A stretch of 64,000 nucleotides of DNA from assembly GCA_025449115.1 (NCBI GenBank), contig JAHLKC010000105.1, positions 62,001-126,000 on the forward strand, read 5' to 3'. This DNA is from Chytridium lagenaria. Lineage: Eukaryota; Chytridiomycota; Chytridiomycetes; Chytridiales; Chytridiaceae. The notes below the pieces were generated by a model that had not been told where the DNA came from, made no database searches, and saw only the letters and a list, made by a program, of their open reading frames with translations. Each line of letters begins with the position of its first letter. Position 1 is the first letter of the stretch. Made by a program: the position numbers and the translations under genes. Positions 5,233-64,000 of this stretch are shown here, piece by piece.

Positions 5233-7311
5233 TGTTTATCGTTCACCAAGGTTGAGGTTGTGTGTAGTGTTGTCCGAAACAGTTCCAAAACAGAAACAGA
5301 AAGCCGCGCCAAGCGAGACTAAGGAAGAAACAAAACAGTAACAGAAGAAAGCGGACAAATGATGACGGCCAGAGGACCAAAAAAGGAAAAACAGCGCAGA
5401 GGCCCCAGGGGGAAACGAAGAAGGAAAGGAAGACGGTCTCCGAAGAGGCAACTAGGGAACTAGGGGGAGTAAAATTTTTCGTCTTTCCCCTCGAAATCCC
5501 CCATTTCAATTTTGGGGAATTTTTATGTAATGATGGGATGATTCACAGACGGCGTCCACCACAAACCGCCATTGGAACATCAGACTACTGGCCAGTCAAG
5601 CATAGTTAGTTAGATATCACAGAGATTTGAAACTTCAACATTATCGCAATTCATGGATGTAGTAAGGCCTCTTTGATAGATTATGGGGGTTGTGCATTTG
5701 AGTACAGTAATAACAGTATACGACAACGAGATAAAAATCGGAGTGCTTACCATCTACTCTCCATACGCATGTGGAATATTGTCGAGCTTGTCGCTGCTGT
5801 TCTCTTCAGTTCTTTCATGATCAGCCGCAAATATGAACTGAGTTCATGCAAAACATACGTCTCTGTCCCATGCCTATCTGACTTGGGTTGTCCAGTCTAT
5901 GTATTATCTCTGGCATCCGCGAGAACGTTTTATAATACATATCACTTAGGTCGCTTGCCTCCCGATATCCTTTAAAATCCCGTGCTACTCTGCGTTGAGC
6001 CTCGTTCTCCACAAGCTCTCCAAATCACTATCACCCAGATGATTTAAGGGTACCGCATCCCGAGACTCGCGCCATCAAAGCGCAGCTGCAAGGTAGCATC
6101 CACCGATCGCCATATATTGAGGCAGTGAATGAAGCATGGAAAGCGCGTTCAACAGTGTGATCCGCCACAAGCCACCAAGGCCTTGATGATCTTGACGTAA
6201 CATTCTTGTTTTATAACAGCACCCCCTTGCTAAACACATAAAAATATTGGTCTTAAAAGAGGAACGAACGTTTTCGTGGTGAGTCAAGAGTAATGGTGCT
6301 TGGAATTTATGGATAAGAAAATGGCGCGCAATCTATGCGTTTATCGGAGACGGGTTTGATTGTTTCTTGGCCGGCTGGATAAAGCTCTCCCTGAAAAAAC
6401 TCTGTCGACACAGAAGCAGAGTAATGCGAGAACAGGCCGAGCATGAGATTGCTTCAGAACGTAGTGCCGAGAGGGGAGAAAACGAGCATCGAGGTTGCTC
6501 CATACCAGTATGGGTCCAATGCAGAGGTCTTATCACTTATGCCACCCTTGCATAGATGATCTTGGTTCTTCTCATGACCACCGCTATCGCTTCCATCGTG
6601 GTTCCTCTTAGTATCATCTTTGTGGGGACATGACAGAAATCTTTAAACTCTCTTTCGACCACCGCGGTTCAGTTGGCGTAAGGCAAGCTTCGGACGGTAT
6701 TGCCACGCGGCTGATGACCACGGCGGAAACTTTGGAGGATCTCGTAAACTCGGCTTATTTTTCAGAGGTACCGTTAGTGTAATCTTCGCTTGGCTTACAC
6801 AAGTTCAGGACTTTATTCAAGTATCAGTGACGTGAAAGCGTCCCGTACTTTAATCCCAGATATAGCGAAAGTTTGCCTTTTTTTTTACAAATCAAACCAA
6901 AGGAAGCTCAATACTTATTCATCACCACAGGCTCTGAACTCGCAACCCTATATCAGCGGTATTGTGTGCTCTCAACCTGGAGAGTAAGCTGTGGAACCAT
7001 TTGGCCCATACATCAACCGCACGAATGATCATTTGGTGGCTGCAACCGCGATCCTCGGAATGTTTGAAAAGACTACAACTGCATTTGTCATTGGTGCGCC
7101 GTATATATGCTGTGATAGTTTCCAACAAGAATAATAGATCCAACCACCAACGCGCCATTCAAATGGTGATGCTTGAACCATCGTCTTACACGGTAGTTCG
7201 GAACGAGACACTTGGTCCTGTTTTGGCAAACGCGGATGCCAATGTGGCGCGAAAGAATATGTTGTCAAGTAGTCCCTCGAAGGATCTTCATTTTGGTGAG
7301 AGAGTTTTATT
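5233..7311. other. Gene-poor, degraded region left of the retroelement
   Basis: No intact gene seen over about 2 kb. The left part holds the promoter of the NAM8-like gene. From about 6.3 kb to the retroelement boundary there are scattered protein-like plus-strand patches in shifting frames with stops, for example LQNVVPRGEKTSIEVAPYQY near 6.45 kb and FGPYINRTNDHLVAATAILG near 6.98 kb. They look like remnants of a gene or of several genes, but I cannot name a family for most of them. Confidence 0.4.
6550..6690 (+). pseudogene. Possible relic of a membrane sensor (TM plus HAMP-like segment)
   Basis: One plus-strand frame reads a hydrophobic segment ILVLLMTTAIASIVVPLSII followed by FVGT, a stop, QKSLNSLSTTAVQLA, a second stop and GKLRTVLPRG. 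A transmembrane helix followed directly by a segment of this kind resembles the TM-HAMP joint of sensor histidine kinases or cyclases. Two in-frame stops mean it cannot be functional. It lies left of the retroelement, while a clearer dCache-TM-HAMP relic on the same strand lies right of it. They could be parts of one locus or separate paralogues. The similarity is weak and judged by eye. Confidence 0.3.
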
Positions 7312-57180: not shown

Positions 57181-57353
57181 TGTTCCCTTTTTTTATATGT
57201 CTTTGTATTCCGTTTTGTATATAATTAGTCTCTCTATAATTTTTGTTATCTTCTCAAGTTTTTTCGTAATGGTTTATTTCCTTTGTTCCTATATTCTATT
57301 CTCTTTTTTTTATTTTATTTTACATTAAATTGGTTTTAAAGTATGGTCTTTAT

Positions 57354-60300
57354 TTATTGACTTAGCACTTCAGTATATACAACATTTTTCGTTCGTTGCA
57401 ACTTTTCTTCTGATATTGCTAGAATCTTGACGTTGGCTTGGTTTGTTGCTCTTGATAATGCGACATATAGTTGACCGTGAGTAAAGACAGGTTCGGGTAA
57501 GTATATTCCAACAACCGGAATTGTTTGACCTTGTGCTTTATTGACGGTAAGGGCATACGCGAGTTTTATCGGAAACTGTTTTCGTCTCAACGTGAAAGGA
57601 AGGCCGGATGAAGATGATGATGACATCGGAATTCGTGGAATAAATACACGTTTTCCTTTATGTGATCCGATCACAATTTCCGCTTCAATTACGTTTCGAT
57701 GGAGTTGTTTGCAAATAAGACGTGTGCCATTGCACAACCCAGCCGGTGGATCAAGATTACGTAATAATATGATAGGGCTGTGTTGTTTCAAGCGAAGTTG
57801 GTGGGGCGATATTCCGGAAATCTCTAAAGTATTTAGAAATTCGATTTGGTATAAACCATTTGGATCTTCAGGCACTGAATCAAAACTGGAGTATATCGTC
57901 TCTTCCCCCGGTAGAAGCTCGAGAATTTTGCTGTTTAAATGATTTACGTATTCGTTGCGTGTGGCCAAAATAGCTCGATCTACTATCCATCTCGGATTGC
58001 GATAATGAGAATGAATATCGGAAAAGACAAAGTCTATCAATTCTTGTTCGGCGTCGGATAAAGTGTCAGGAGTTGCAGAAATTATTATAGAAGGTGGTAT
58101 TTGAATACGACCTTCTTCATCTCTTTCTTCGTCACCATTTCCGACACGCAAAAGCCATTGACGAAAAGAAGCATCGTCCGACACTCGCATATTTTGTCGA
58201 AGACGAATTATATGAACGTCATGCCATATATATGATCGAGAAAGTGAGCTACTGATAATTTGTTCCCTTGATCCTTTTGGGATGACTGTAAGAATCTGAC
58301 GAAAGTCTCCGCACAGAACTATGGTTTTCCCACCAAACATCTTTTCACTGTCTGCCAGATCTCGAAAGGTTCTATCTACCGTTTCGAAAACATGCTTGTG
58401 CATCATAGGCGCTTCATCCCAAATAATAAGTCGGGTTTCGTGTAGCAACTTCGCAGTTTCACTATTTTTCTTAATGTTGCATGTTGTCGCGGTATCTGTA
58501 TCGAGGGGAATTTTAAATCTTGAGTGCGATGTGCGACCTCCGATCATATTAATTGCAGCGATGCCCGACGATGCTGTGGCAAGTGCAATTTGGTTTCTAT
58601 TTCGAATCGTCGCGAGAAGACATGAACAAAGAAATGTTTTTCCAGATCCTCCTGGACCATCGATGAAAAACACTTCTCCCAAGTTTTCTTCAACACTCGT
58701 CATTATCGTTTGAAATGCCTCGCGTTGATCATTATTGAAGACGTTATATCCATTAAGATGCTCTTCTGGAATGGCGAGATTCAACTCTTCACGAATAAGT
58801 ACAGGCAAACCGTCTATAGAAGATATTTGGTCAAGCGTGGGAAGATCAAAATCGTCAATATTTCGATGATGTTGTTGAACTATGTTGCTGATATGTTGGA
58901 GCACGGCTTGTTGGCGGAGCTGATCATTCATGATTCCTTGATGGAAAAAATCTTCAGACATGGCTTCCCAGTAGTTATTCCAAAGGTCAATAACTGATGC
59001 GGGCTCACAAAACACTAAAAGTATTGCAAATAGCTGTCTGAGCGCATATGGAGACTGGAAAATTACGGCTTCTTCCATGCAATCTGTAACGTGAGAATCC
59101 GCTTCTAACAGATGTAGCTCTTGTGCAGCAGCTTTAAAGGTTGGGAAAGGCACGCCATTGACTGTTCGGAGAGATTGAAAACTTGTAGGTCCGCGTACAT
59201 GCAATAAAAGTAAACGTAGAAAATATCGTTCACCCTCAGAAGGATGAACTGTATACATTCGTCCAACAGCATAATTCCGTTGTCTCCAAACCCACTTTCT
59301 TCCTGTGTTTTGCCAAACGAAATGTTCTGGTAATTCTGAGTACGTATAAACGCGAGCAGATTCGTCACGTTGATTGAGAGTGAAAAATTCGGTCAACATA
59401 GTTTTTCGTAGTCTCTCATCGTTTGCAATAGTTTGAAGATCGGCGGACTCATTATAGACAACGTAATTAGCATTCGGCAAATGCACTTGAAGTCTATACA
59501 CAACAGGAGATAATTCACCAAGGGTGAAACTAAAAATTCGCCAACATGCTTCCGGTGCGGCAATCCATCGAGTGTCAACAAACTGTTTAATCTCGTCGGA
59601 TGAACTAACTTCTACGAAGGCACTATCATGACCTTGATAATATGTTAATGGAAGAACGGCTTAATAACGAATACCTTTTAAAATATACTTATACAAATAC
59701 TTAACCGCTTTAATACTGCTGCAAACTTCGACGTTTATATGGCAGTTGAACTTTACGCTAAGATAGGGATTGTAAGGAACTACCCATCGATTATCCAAGT
59801 TTACTCCATGTTTTCTCACTCTTCGTCCGTCATCTCGTCTACGATATAATGGATATGAGTCCCTTCCTTGCGTAGTAGCTTCTTGAAATTCACGGGGATA
59901 CCGTTTCGAACAATGCCCATTTTGCATGCATGCACTATTAGGTCTAAAAGCACCACACGGTCCATGAACCATGTGATCGGAAACGACTGCGTATAATTGA
60001 GGTTCTTCTTCCCGATCAGGAAATTCTGCGCGAATTACAGCATCGTAATCATCAGCCGTGGAGAATCGATGATGTGGAGCAAGAATGATTAACAGGTGCA
60101 CATGAGGTAATCCTCTTTTCTGAAATTCAACGGAGTAAGCCCATGCTATCACGTCACCAAATATTTTCTTGGTAACAATCTCGTTTTTGAGCTCCTTCAC
60201 TTTCCCGTTGAAAACTCGAACCACAACATCAGGTCGATCTTGCGCTGACTGATTCGGTAGTAATTCTCGACGAATCTCCCGCCAGTTCGGATTACACGTC

Positions 60301-61620
60301 ATCGTAACAAATAAAGATGGTTTTCCAAACTTCGCAACAATCTTCATGGCATCTTGGTATCGTTGGTGTAAATACCGTGGACTACCAACAAATGACGACG
60401 GTAATACTGTTCTCCCAACATTTGCGGCATCTGTTTCCCCGTTCTGTACTGCATCTTGAATACCAAAATATAAATCAGATCGAATCGCGTCTTGCTCACG
60501 TCGAAGATAATTTAAACGCTCAGATTCTATCTTAACATAATTATCAACCACATATTGCTGCAACAAACGCCCGCCGCGAAGAATTAATGATGTAGACTCG
60601 TCTCGTAACTGAAGCTTGAAACAATAATAATCGCGACTTGTAACTTTTTTGTTTTGACGATTTAAAACATTAGGAGACCATCCTTGATCGCCGAAAGGAA
60701 AGAATAATGGATATTGCATAGCGTCATATGCACCGGAAAGATCCGATATTCGTTGCAATTGATTATCAAAAGGCCGCACAACAACTTCACGGTTCATTAT
60801 ACCGGAAGGATTATGTCCTTATGTGAATGTTAGAATTTATACATAGAAAGTTTATATACCATCAGTCCATAAGGCGGCAACCTGTGACGCTTGAGGTCTA
60901 TTATACCGTCGTTGATCAAGATTCGGAATATCAAGGCGTAAAGACAAAGAAAACCCATCCAAATTGGGAAGTTCTGCCGCGGAACGAAAGACGGAGATAT
61001 ATGGATTCACATCACGTAACAAATTCTGTAATGTCCGAACTTTAACGGGATCCAAGTCTGGGAAAACGTCCATTCTATGATCGAATTCGTGTTCGGTATC
61101 AAAGAAATATAATTGTAAAAACTTTGGGCGTTGATTTCCATCAGGCAGTAATGATCCTATCCTATGATAAATAGAACCATGCACCCGAAACGTATATACT
61201 CCATCCCGACCATTCGCCAATTCTATATCCAATTGTACTCCCAATGACGTAAAACCAAAAAGGGAATTATAACTCCGAATGTTGCGACAAAACTCAGTAT
61301 TATTAGAGAAAAGCTCCAAGAGATACGGAGGAGGAGACGACAATGTAACGAAATCTTGCCCCCATCACAACAAAATAACGGTGACTCCCAAGGAAATCGT
61401 CGAGCAAAACAGTATTCACATAAAACAGCAGGCGGAAGCAAATGTTCAACATCTGTAGGTCCCTCGAAAAAAAAGCAAGCTAACCGAGCACTCCCATGTC
61501 GTCTTCTATAACGCTCTCTACGTATACGCCGAATTTCCTGTCGCACATTTTCACTTTGAGCTGCTCGTTGACGGCGACGTCTATCAGTATTGGATTGCCT
61601 ACATCCGTATCACTATACAT
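57354..61620 (-). CDS. Helitron Rep/Pif1-type helicase, one frameshift
   Basis: The N-terminal part is Arg-rich (RRIRRERYRRRHGSARL) with a CEYCFARRFPWES ... FCCDGGK zinc-like region. A one- or two-base shift near 61.35 kb separates it from SPPPYLLELFSNNTEFCRNI. A 42-bp intron (60818-60859) joins ALWTDG to HNPSGIMNREVVV. The Rep part shows SGAYDAMQYPLFFPFGDQGW, the HUH motif in KRGLPHVHLLI and the tyrosines of KAVKYLYKYILKG. A second 42-bp intron (59633-59674) joins that to HDSAFVEV and then WIAAPEACWRIF. The helicase has Walker A GPGGSGKTF, Walker B LIIWDEAPM, the CGDFRQILTVIP motif and the late VNKAQGQTIPVVGIYLP and YVALSRATN motifs. It nicks and unwinds DNA for rolling-circle transposition. 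The exact start is uncertain. Confidence 0.87.
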
Positions 61621-62081
61621 ATTCATTGAACTAAAGAACCTCTCAGTCTCTCGCTGCACATCACTCTGCTGATGTCGTCGACGTCTTCGAGCAAAAGTGT
61701 TTGCTTCGCGCCGACTTTGTCGAACCGAATCCGTCTCTTGACTATCAAATCAATACCACTTCCCACGTCATTCAATACCTTGAATCCATCCACCGTAACC
61801 GTTTGCAACAAACTACGGAAATATTTATAAATAACCCACTATATGATTCCCCCACCGTCTCAAAACACGGATAACAACAATAACATCATCAATTATTAAA
61901 ATTCTACTTTTTTTTATTTTATTTGTTCACGTGGGAACGACCCAATGAATACGATCCGTTAACCCGCCAATAAGAATGGTCGGTGAGGACGGACACCATT
62001 AGAATTTTATAATATTAGATAACTACAACGAAAAAATTCGACAATTCCGCAAGTTAATGTCCTCCTCCAAACAGCCTCGAG

Positions 62082-64000
62082 ATGACCACCATGATGACTT
62101 CCAACCGTTACAGCTTACTCCTTCCCATCCATTCAAAAAGCTACGGTCGACGGTATGATATCTCTCATCCGTCATTTGATTTTGTACAGGCAGTTCCAGG
62201 ATCCCATCCGATAGTTTTTCCGACTCATGTATGTCAGTCATTAACGGAGGATGGGAAACCTTGTCCGATGCCATCGTTGATGGGCTTGTATTGTAAAGAA
62301 CATTATCGAAAAGCACATCCTGTAAGTTATGATACATCAAACATCCTCTAACGTTATAGGAAGCTGTTATGAAACCGATATCCGAGCAGGCAGTAATCGT
62401 TTTTCTCTAAGAATTGCAACTAACACACTTAGAATTTTTTTGTTATGCAATGCGGAAACTAGGAACGGTCATCCTTGTCGAAATTATCGAACGCCAGGAA
62501 AACAATATTGTTTTCGACACAGAAAAAAGTCTAGAGCGACGACGAAGAATATCACAATGACTTCTGTTAAAATGGTAAGCTTCATTTATAGTTATCATTA
62601 ATTTCAGCAGAGAGCAGATAAAAGTCATGAAGCTTGCGTTTTCATTACCAAGGAAGGAAGTCAATGCAGCTTTCCATCTATCAAAAATACCGGATTTTGT
62701 TATTTTCATTACGGAGAACTTGCACCGGTAAGCAACAAGCAAACACAAAGATTTATTAATATCAGCAGCGGCCGTCGACAGCAGAGATTGCACCATCAAC
62801 GGTTCCAATTATGAAGGTCACTTTAATATTTAATTTCAATTGTTTATTTTTTCATTTAAACAGGAAGCGAAACTGTGTTCTGGGACAACTCGTAACGGTA
62901 GACCTTGTCAATCTCGGCCGCTCAAAAAAAAGAGTTATTGCTATCATCACGACAAGCAACAAGAGCTCGTTGTGGAAGTTAGTAAAACTCATGCGGGGAA
63001 ATCCACGAAACGTCGTCACTACAAATCGTCTAGTAATATATCGTCACGATTTTCTTTGGACCCCGACCGTATAATCACTCCTGAAGAACTTCAACATCGT
63101 AGAGCAACGTTTCCAACGCCGGTTAGCCAAGACGATATTGTTGACGCCATTGGGAGGTTTCAAGATTATACAAAACTTGAACAATATGAGAAAGGTAATA
63201 GTTTATGTTTGAAATACAAGTAACTTTTAAAACAGACATATGCACAACGTGTGGACGAGCTATGTTCAAGTCACAGCTGTCACGAACTGGACGTGAATTT
63301 TTTTCCGTTCACCGCGAGCGCTTCCTCCCACAAACGTCAGAACTTCAAGCATTAGCCGAACGGGGGATGTTTGACCATTCAGACGGAATCTTTCACAAAT
63401 TGGTTCTAGCGCAGGAAGGGATCAAGAATGACGAGTCGGCGAATGTTTGTTTTTCTTGTGTTGAAGCGGCCAACACATCCTCTCAGGATTTTTCCTTGCT
63501 CGAGGATTTTGGAGAGGTCGATGGCCAAAACATTTACCCAAGCTCACGGACGCGGAAGAAATGTTGATAGCATTCATGATACCACATATTATGGTGATTG
63601 CACTGCGATCAGTTGGTGGTCATCAAGAAGGTTCGACTGCACTCCGTGGAAATGTGATTGTATACGCGAACGACGTTCAGGAGGTCGTGAAAAAACTTCC
63701 TCGTCCAGTATCACGCCTTCGAGATCATATCCAAGTGGTATTCACGGGGAACATCTTTCGCTCAAATCGCTCAAGTATGCGTTAATGGTCAGGCCATCAG
63801 CATGCTTGGACGCGTTACGTTTCCTTAAGGAAAACTCCATTCTTACAAAGATATCGTCATCGATGACGAGGCTATTGTTGAGTCAGATTTAGATGAGAAC
63901 AAAATTCCACGATGTCTGATTGATTTAGCGGAAACGTACAAGGATGATAGTAGCTCAGTTATTGATCAACAATCTTCCGTACACGCTGGTCAGGAAGACC
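62082..64000 (+). CDS. Second Helitron-type Rep/helicase, N-terminal part, with four Cys/His modules; runs off the window
   Basis: Plus-strand gene starting 62 bp beyond the Helitron end. Four short exons each hold one C-x9-C-x9/10-C-x2-H module: CQSLTEDGKPC ... YCKEH; CNAETRNGHPC ... YCFRH; CVFITKEGSQC ... FCYFH; CSGTTRNGRPC ... YCYHH. Then follow RIITPEELQHRRATFPTPVS, CTTCGRAMFKSQLS, SANVCFSCVEA and LPKLTDAEEMLIAFMIPHIM. Next are GNVIVYANDVQEVVKKLPRP and LDALRFLKENSI, with YKDIVIDDEAIVESDLDENK-like text beyond. The part from CTTCGRA onward matches the region in front of the Rep domain in many Helitron proteins (DUF6570-like). Frame changes near 63.53 and 63.8 kb, plus one unclear exon junction near 62.4 kb, suggest damage. 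The HUH and helicase parts would lie beyond the window. Confidence 0.65.

Follow-up and report, generated by a model that had tools for sequence, protein, structure and literature searches.

Organisation of the locus

The window analysed here, a stretch of 64,000 bases of Chytridium lagenaria DNA (contig JAHLKC010000105.1, hereafter C105, positions 62001-126000), contains near its end four small cysteine/histidine modules in front of a Helitron-type gene. The genome assembly searched for relatives comprises 41.9 Mb in 356 contigs. A pattern search placed the four modules on the plus strand, and all of them share the form C-x3-T-x2-G-x2-C-x9/10-C-x2-H. The spacing C-x9-C-x9/10-C-x2-H is matched four times in the six frames of the whole window, each time by one of these modules, compared with a chance expectation of 0.07 matches per 64 kb (mean of 60 order-1 simulations); no simulated match carried the T-x-x-G-x-x-C core together with the Y/F-C end. 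The simulation ruled out a chance origin of the modules, and the four modules that an earlier reading of the letters (the original prediction) had described were recovered with their spacing and place. The predicted exons and features, in window coordinates, are as follows.

62057-62152, plus strand: predicted exon 1, no module; candidate start codon ATG at 62057; open frame up to a GT-AG intron (62153-62189, phase 0)
62190-62321, plus strand: predicted exon 2 with module 1 (62232-62303, CQSLTEDGKPCPMPSLMGLYCKEH); pattern match; DUF5763 E 4.5e-5, under the cut-off; following intron 62322-62359, phase 0
62360-62392, plus strand: predicted exon 3, a 33-base linker between GT-AG introns, phase 0; following intron 62393-62432
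62433-62574, plus strand: predicted exon 4 with module 2 (62446-62520, CNAETRNGHPCRNYRTPGKQYCFRH); pattern match; one-base frame change in the T-run 62435-62441
62608-62727, plus strand: predicted exon 5 with module 3 (62635-62709, CVFITKEGSQCSFPSIKNTGFCYFH); pattern match; DUF5763 E 4.9e-4, under the cut-off; flanking introns 62575-62607 and 62728-62765 (phase 0 when read in the frame of the modules)
62766-62816, plus strand: predicted exon 6, a 51-base linker between GT-AG introns; following intron 62817-62863
62864-63194, plus strand: predicted exon 7 with module 4 (62876-62950, CSGTTRNGRPCQSRPLKKKSYCYHH) and a linker towards DUF6570; pattern match; DUF5763 E 8.9e-7, 28.7 bits (cut-off 26.3); fold model of 62864-62983
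63236-64000, continuing past the window, plus strand: start of the Helitron body with two CxxC pairs (63241-63255, 63448-63462) and DUF6570 (open reading frame (ORF) 63465-63785); Pfam and sequence reading

That the modules lead into a DUF6570 region was confirmed by a Pfam match to residues 10-96 of the ORF (E 2.2e-21). The two CxxC pairs directly precede this domain and could correspond to the zinc-finger-like motif reported by others. Extension past the window end (L002, C105:123500-133400) revealed the HUH domain Helitron_like_N (PF14214; E 4.4e-9; 37.2 bits, cut-off 28.9) at L002:2947-3669, corresponding to C105:126446-127168, with HVH readable in its translation. A PIF1 helicase (PF05970; E 5.9e-19) follows downstream in the same orientation at L002:5116-6258 (C105:128615-129757). 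Between the two domains, C105 and a second copy on contig C47 have a Y-x3-Y stretch (LYFLYYM), recognised by eye only, which contains candidate catalytic tyrosines. The modules also accompany the element at three further places, and their assignment to a Helitron-type protein, for which HUH and helicase domains had been sought beyond the window, was thus borne out.

We hold the anatomy of the proposed gene as read here with high confidence. To the fuller reading, that a Helitron transposase (RepHel) gene carries the array as its N-terminal part and that the array consists of C3H fingers of the Mcm10/DUF5763 type, we assign a probability of roughly 0.6.

Related copies in the genome

A genome profile search for DUF6570 gave 24 matches at 22 places, after split pairs on C89 and C40 had been merged. 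Scanning about 1.5 kb on either side of each match with a module profile detected modules at four of the 22 places, namely C105, C47, C89 and, partially, C153. Being found with Helitron copies at all four of these places, the modules form part of the element; how many of them there are varies from copy to copy. The near family, whose members each show at least 50% identity to the C47 protein, comprises the copies on C47, C105, C89, C28, C153 and C7; two of these lack modules, and both are fragments. No modules were found in 10 kb around the C28 copy. The C7 fragment (L016, about rc 1096-1860) is close to the C105 copy around DUF6570 and is module-free.

The size of the array is three modules in C47, four in C105 and six to seven in C89, the C153 array being partial. 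C89 carries two modules in its first exon and four more in frame, and a frame change within a T-run disrupts a seventh. In C47 the 5' part is missing, and module 1 was not found in the 10 kb upstream. Retroelement-like sequence, recognised by eye and without a Pfam match, adjoins the C47 element and has apparently cut off its 5' part.

Exon phases and frame changes

The predicted introns of the C105 array (GT-AG, 33-47 bases) were picked by eye, fitted to the open frames and then checked by script. They separate all four modules, and two small module-free exons lie between modules 1 and 2 and between modules 3 and 4. The module-per-exon layout claimed in the original prediction therefore stands for the predicted exons of C105, but it is not strict among the relatives: the first predicted exon of C89 carries two modules, and modules 2 and 3 of C47 lie in one open frame, in which an in-frame GT-AG intron of at least 33 bases is possible and not required.

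When each module is read in its own frame, phase 0 results for the donor that follows each of modules 1-3 and for the acceptor that precedes each of modules 1, 3 and 4. A running count over the array gives phase 0 for introns 1-3 and phase 1 for introns 4-6, because it carries along the single-base shift in the T-run with which exon 4 begins. The intron preceding the Helitron body is phase 1 relative to the frame of module 4. All six predicted introns of the C89 array are phase 0; one of them (rc 6060-6098) is stop-free and has a length divisible by three, so that splicing there is not forced. Since such exons are symmetric, fingers could be gained or lost without a frame shift.

Owing to the T-run with which exon 4 begins, module 2 is shifted by one base relative to the frame of exon 3, a change not mentioned in the original prediction; in C47 the corresponding exon start and its module share one frame. 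A second frame change occurs in a T-run just before DUF6570. Farther downstream, outside the window, the C47 protein has a tblastn match to C105 that runs across eight stops. Because of these frame changes and downstream stops, the window copy is, as assembled, broken and reads as a decayed Helitron gene; assembly error may lie behind both frame changes in the window, each of which falls in a T-run. Long open frames exist elsewhere, with 768 amino acids (aa) in a neighbouring minus-strand Helitron and 664 and 711 aa in C47. In C47 the frame shifts behind module 4 and again in the late part of the helicase, C89 likewise has frame changes in places, and none of the copies on C105, C47 and C89 was shown to be intact.

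Conservation and age of the array

Alignment of modules 2-4 of C105 with those of C47 showed all 12 Cys/His ligands to be shared, compared with 32 of the 63 other residues. Part of this agreement is a consequence of the search itself, which selected modules by their Cys/His pattern. That bias does not touch the synonymous changes, found in 8 of the 12 ligand codons, or the low non-synonymous divergence (dN 0.30 for modules 2-4; the synonymous divergence, dS, was saturated and not computable). By this comparison, the fingers look as if they were kept by selection while the elements diverged.

With the ligands excluded, modules 2, 3 and 4 of C105 are each closest to the C47 module at the same position (scores 73, 51 and 64), while the modules of C105 resemble each other with scores of at most 38. 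As the modules pair by position, the array is older than the split between C105 and C47, and a recent exon duplication in C105 was ruled out. The modules of C89 show no clear pairing with the others except for the sixth, which pairs with module 4 of C105 (score 45). Exon duplication, as originally proposed, is consistent with the symmetric phase-0 exons and with array lengths of four in C105 and six to seven in C89; it was, however, not a recent event.

The 3' end, and neighbouring features

Similarity between C105 and C47 persists to a few bases past a 10-bp hairpin and then ends, as would be expected at a Helitron 3' end, although the sequence there reads CTTG and not CTRR. From the end of the hairpin to the last G of CTTG the distance is 13 bases in C105 and 12 in C47, the exact end of the element being uncertain by a few bases, and 0 of 200 (C105) and 6 of 200 (C47) shuffled sequences folded as well.

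A stretch of roughly 1 kb within the C105 helicase region (L002:6047-7091) has no counterpart in C47, and no inverted repeats were found inside it. A conserved ORF follows the helicase (L033:8901-9551 in C47; L002:8356-9008, in two frames, in C105) and has a relative in C89. Its C47 form has no Pfam match, and a fold model with a mean predicted local distance difference test score (pLDDT) of 36 was not used; possibly, the ORF encodes a single-strand-binding protein of the kind that other Helitrons have.

Head to head with the module-bearing gene lies a second Helitron-type gene on the minus strand (window 57354-60818, perhaps to 61838), which has long open frames with Helitron_like_N (E 1.1e-58) and PIF1 (E 2.3e-76). 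An identical, low-complexity 18-base repeat (CTTTTTTTTATTTTATTT) at 57303 and 61907 is possibly the target duplication of this element. The genome also contains at least 23 matches to Zn2Cys6, a domain typical of fungi, and one radial-spoke match, a combination that agrees with a flagellated fungus.

Resemblance of the modules to known fingers

Searching the four window modules against Pfam gave a divided result: module 4 passed the cut-off of DUF5763 (PF19067), modules 1 and 3 remained below it and module 2 was unmatched. DUF5763 matched 5 of 13 modules at all, and in a genome search it detected three C105 modules and two weak others, Pfam models proving less sensitive in the genome than the module profile. 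A fold model of module 4 (62864-62983) gave Mcm10 at ranks 1-3 in Foldseek, and the sole PDB sequence match of the modules was also Mcm10. Taken by their PDB sequence, profile and fold matches, the modules would best fit a nucleic-acid-binding zinc finger, which agrees with the binding role first proposed.

The Mcm10 assignment is tentative. The Foldseek matches have E-values of 0.32 or worse, and the PDB match is non-significant. The Mcm10 finger family zf-primase (PF09329) reached a best E of 0.032, with top bits noted of 13.2 (module 1) against a cut-off of 28.8, and its genome search lists no Helitron module. The Mcm10 link is weakened because that search misses the modules and because an intron in the host Mcm10 finger fell away: a 41-base intron there, considered as support for short introns, was dropped since the GT-AG stretches break the frame. 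The host finger itself (contig C11, L066:1447-1695, plus strand) has, as assembled, an additional stretch between Cys 2 and Cys 3.

Protein searches for relatives gave no match among 2210 candidates, nor among 7996 best candidates, and a scan of viral contigs detected none. A tblastn search of phage records with two joined modules returned five records with E 3 or worse. Matches in PHROGs were weak, the widest being a terminase small-subunit family (6 of 13 modules, best E 0.053). Within the genome, an ORF of 240 aa on C299 (L065:991-1710, minus strand) has two similar Cys/His modules followed by a DHVVELH stretch, which we take to recall HNH-type nucleases. Its Pfam matches are both under the cut-off (zf-primase E 0.011, DUF5763 E 0.22), and hhalign aligned it with the module profile at E 5.7e-5.

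Proposed function of the array

We propose that each module would form one zinc finger, C3H in its ligands and of the Mcm10/DUF5763 type, mostly on its own symmetric phase-0 exon, and that the array would hold single-stranded DNA (ssDNA) for the HUH nuclease. Zinc binding, ssDNA binding and a part in transposition are what we infer for the array, and by analogy we rate the chances of the ssDNA role as about even. In Helraiser, according to the published account retrieved, binding and cutting of ssDNA are both lacking in fragments without the N-terminal 489 residues, a region in which a zinc-finger-like motif is predicted (PMC4778049). As a tentative extension, which we consider improbable on balance, a fungal Helitron lineage may have made an Mcm10-type ssDNA finger of replication initiation into an array that varies by gain or loss of phase-0 exons, the number of fingers setting how firmly or how long the transposon strand is held during rolling-circle transposition.

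It is unlikely, though it deserves weight, that RNA or a protein partner, and not ssDNA, is what the array binds, for example in the manner of TRM13-type fingers: zf-TRM13_CCCH matches 4 of 13 modules (best E 5.1e-4), and its genome search lists two C89 modules with E 0.145 and 1.37, whereas Mcm10 takes the three top places among the fold matches and is the sole match by sequence in the PDB. The same protein, moreover, has an HUH domain, and HUH domains act on ssDNA.

Diverged fingers in variable number are what a reader of DNA sequence could show, and the original prediction had suggested target choice; selection of a target or transposon end by the array appears quite improbable, since Mcm10, the nearest structural relative, is described without DNA sequence preference in the portions available (PMC5333062), and target choice gained no supporting evidence here.

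We consider capture from the host's own Mcm10 finger very unlikely. The host protein (PDB Mcm10 match E 7.4e-6) has the module-like stretches CKGKGKNGEKC and CDYCDFH, but the extra sequence between its Cys 2 and Cys 3 is absent from the modules and no GT-AG intron removes it in frame, and the two C299 modules are nearer by hhalign (E 5.7e-5 compared with 0.0093). That the modules form a separate host gene next to the Helitron, for which the predicted status of the exon joins and the frame change between modules 1 and 2 could speak, can be dismissed with near certainty, given that at four separate places in the genome modules stand ahead of DUF6570 in the same orientation.

Comparison with known systems

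Of the two families that adjoin this comparison, DUF5763 is a Pfam family of unknown function whose curated cut-off module 4 passes, and a literature search found neither its name nor that of DUF6570. With the Mcm10 finger the modules share C-x9-C...C-x2-H and a G seven to eight residues past the first Cys. They differ in the spacing between Cys 2 and Cys 3 (x11 in Xenopus Mcm10, x9/10 in the modules), and the E-values are not significant. Mcm10 has one CCCH finger beside an OB-fold in its internal domain, as far as the retrieved part of its description goes (PMC5333062), whereas an array is found here. For Helitron and Mcm10 together, only Arabidopsis gall work turned up in the literature searched.

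The element shares with described Helitrons an HUH domain (PF14214) followed by a PIF1 helicase, a cysteine-rich N-terminus and a hairpin near the 3' end of homology. Its C105/C47 end after the hairpin reads CTTG, in contrast to Helitron1, for which the available account gives 5'-TC and CTRR-3' termini, with a hairpin located 10-12 bases upstream of the 3' end (PMC5148889). Zinc-finger-like motifs are reported for Helraiser (PMC4778049) and for a Fusarium Helitron, 'like other Helitrons' (PMC5148889), and zinc fingers for several animal Helitrons, the retrieved passages stating no finger number (PMC4289320); introns in RepHel genes are reported for two Pleurotus elements (PMC4289320). Unlike these, the elements described here have, before the CxxC pairs and DUF6570, an array of four to seven C3H fingers, most of which occupy a predicted phase-0 exon of their own. 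No described Helitron array like that of C105 was found in the literature passages retrieved; one may exist in Repbase or among eukaryotic proteomes, which lay outside the search. As far as these sources go, zinc fingers and introns in Helitrons are already known, and a finger array mostly with one finger per exon is a new variation.

What is reported so far of the Helitron grip on ssDNA is that a large N-terminal region with a zinc-finger-like motif is required (PMC4778049, as retrieved). A countable array of four to seven fingers makes this question testable, as the finger number differs between natural copies and binding can be compared against it. The array would also exemplify a Helitron protein that changes its length through symmetric exons.
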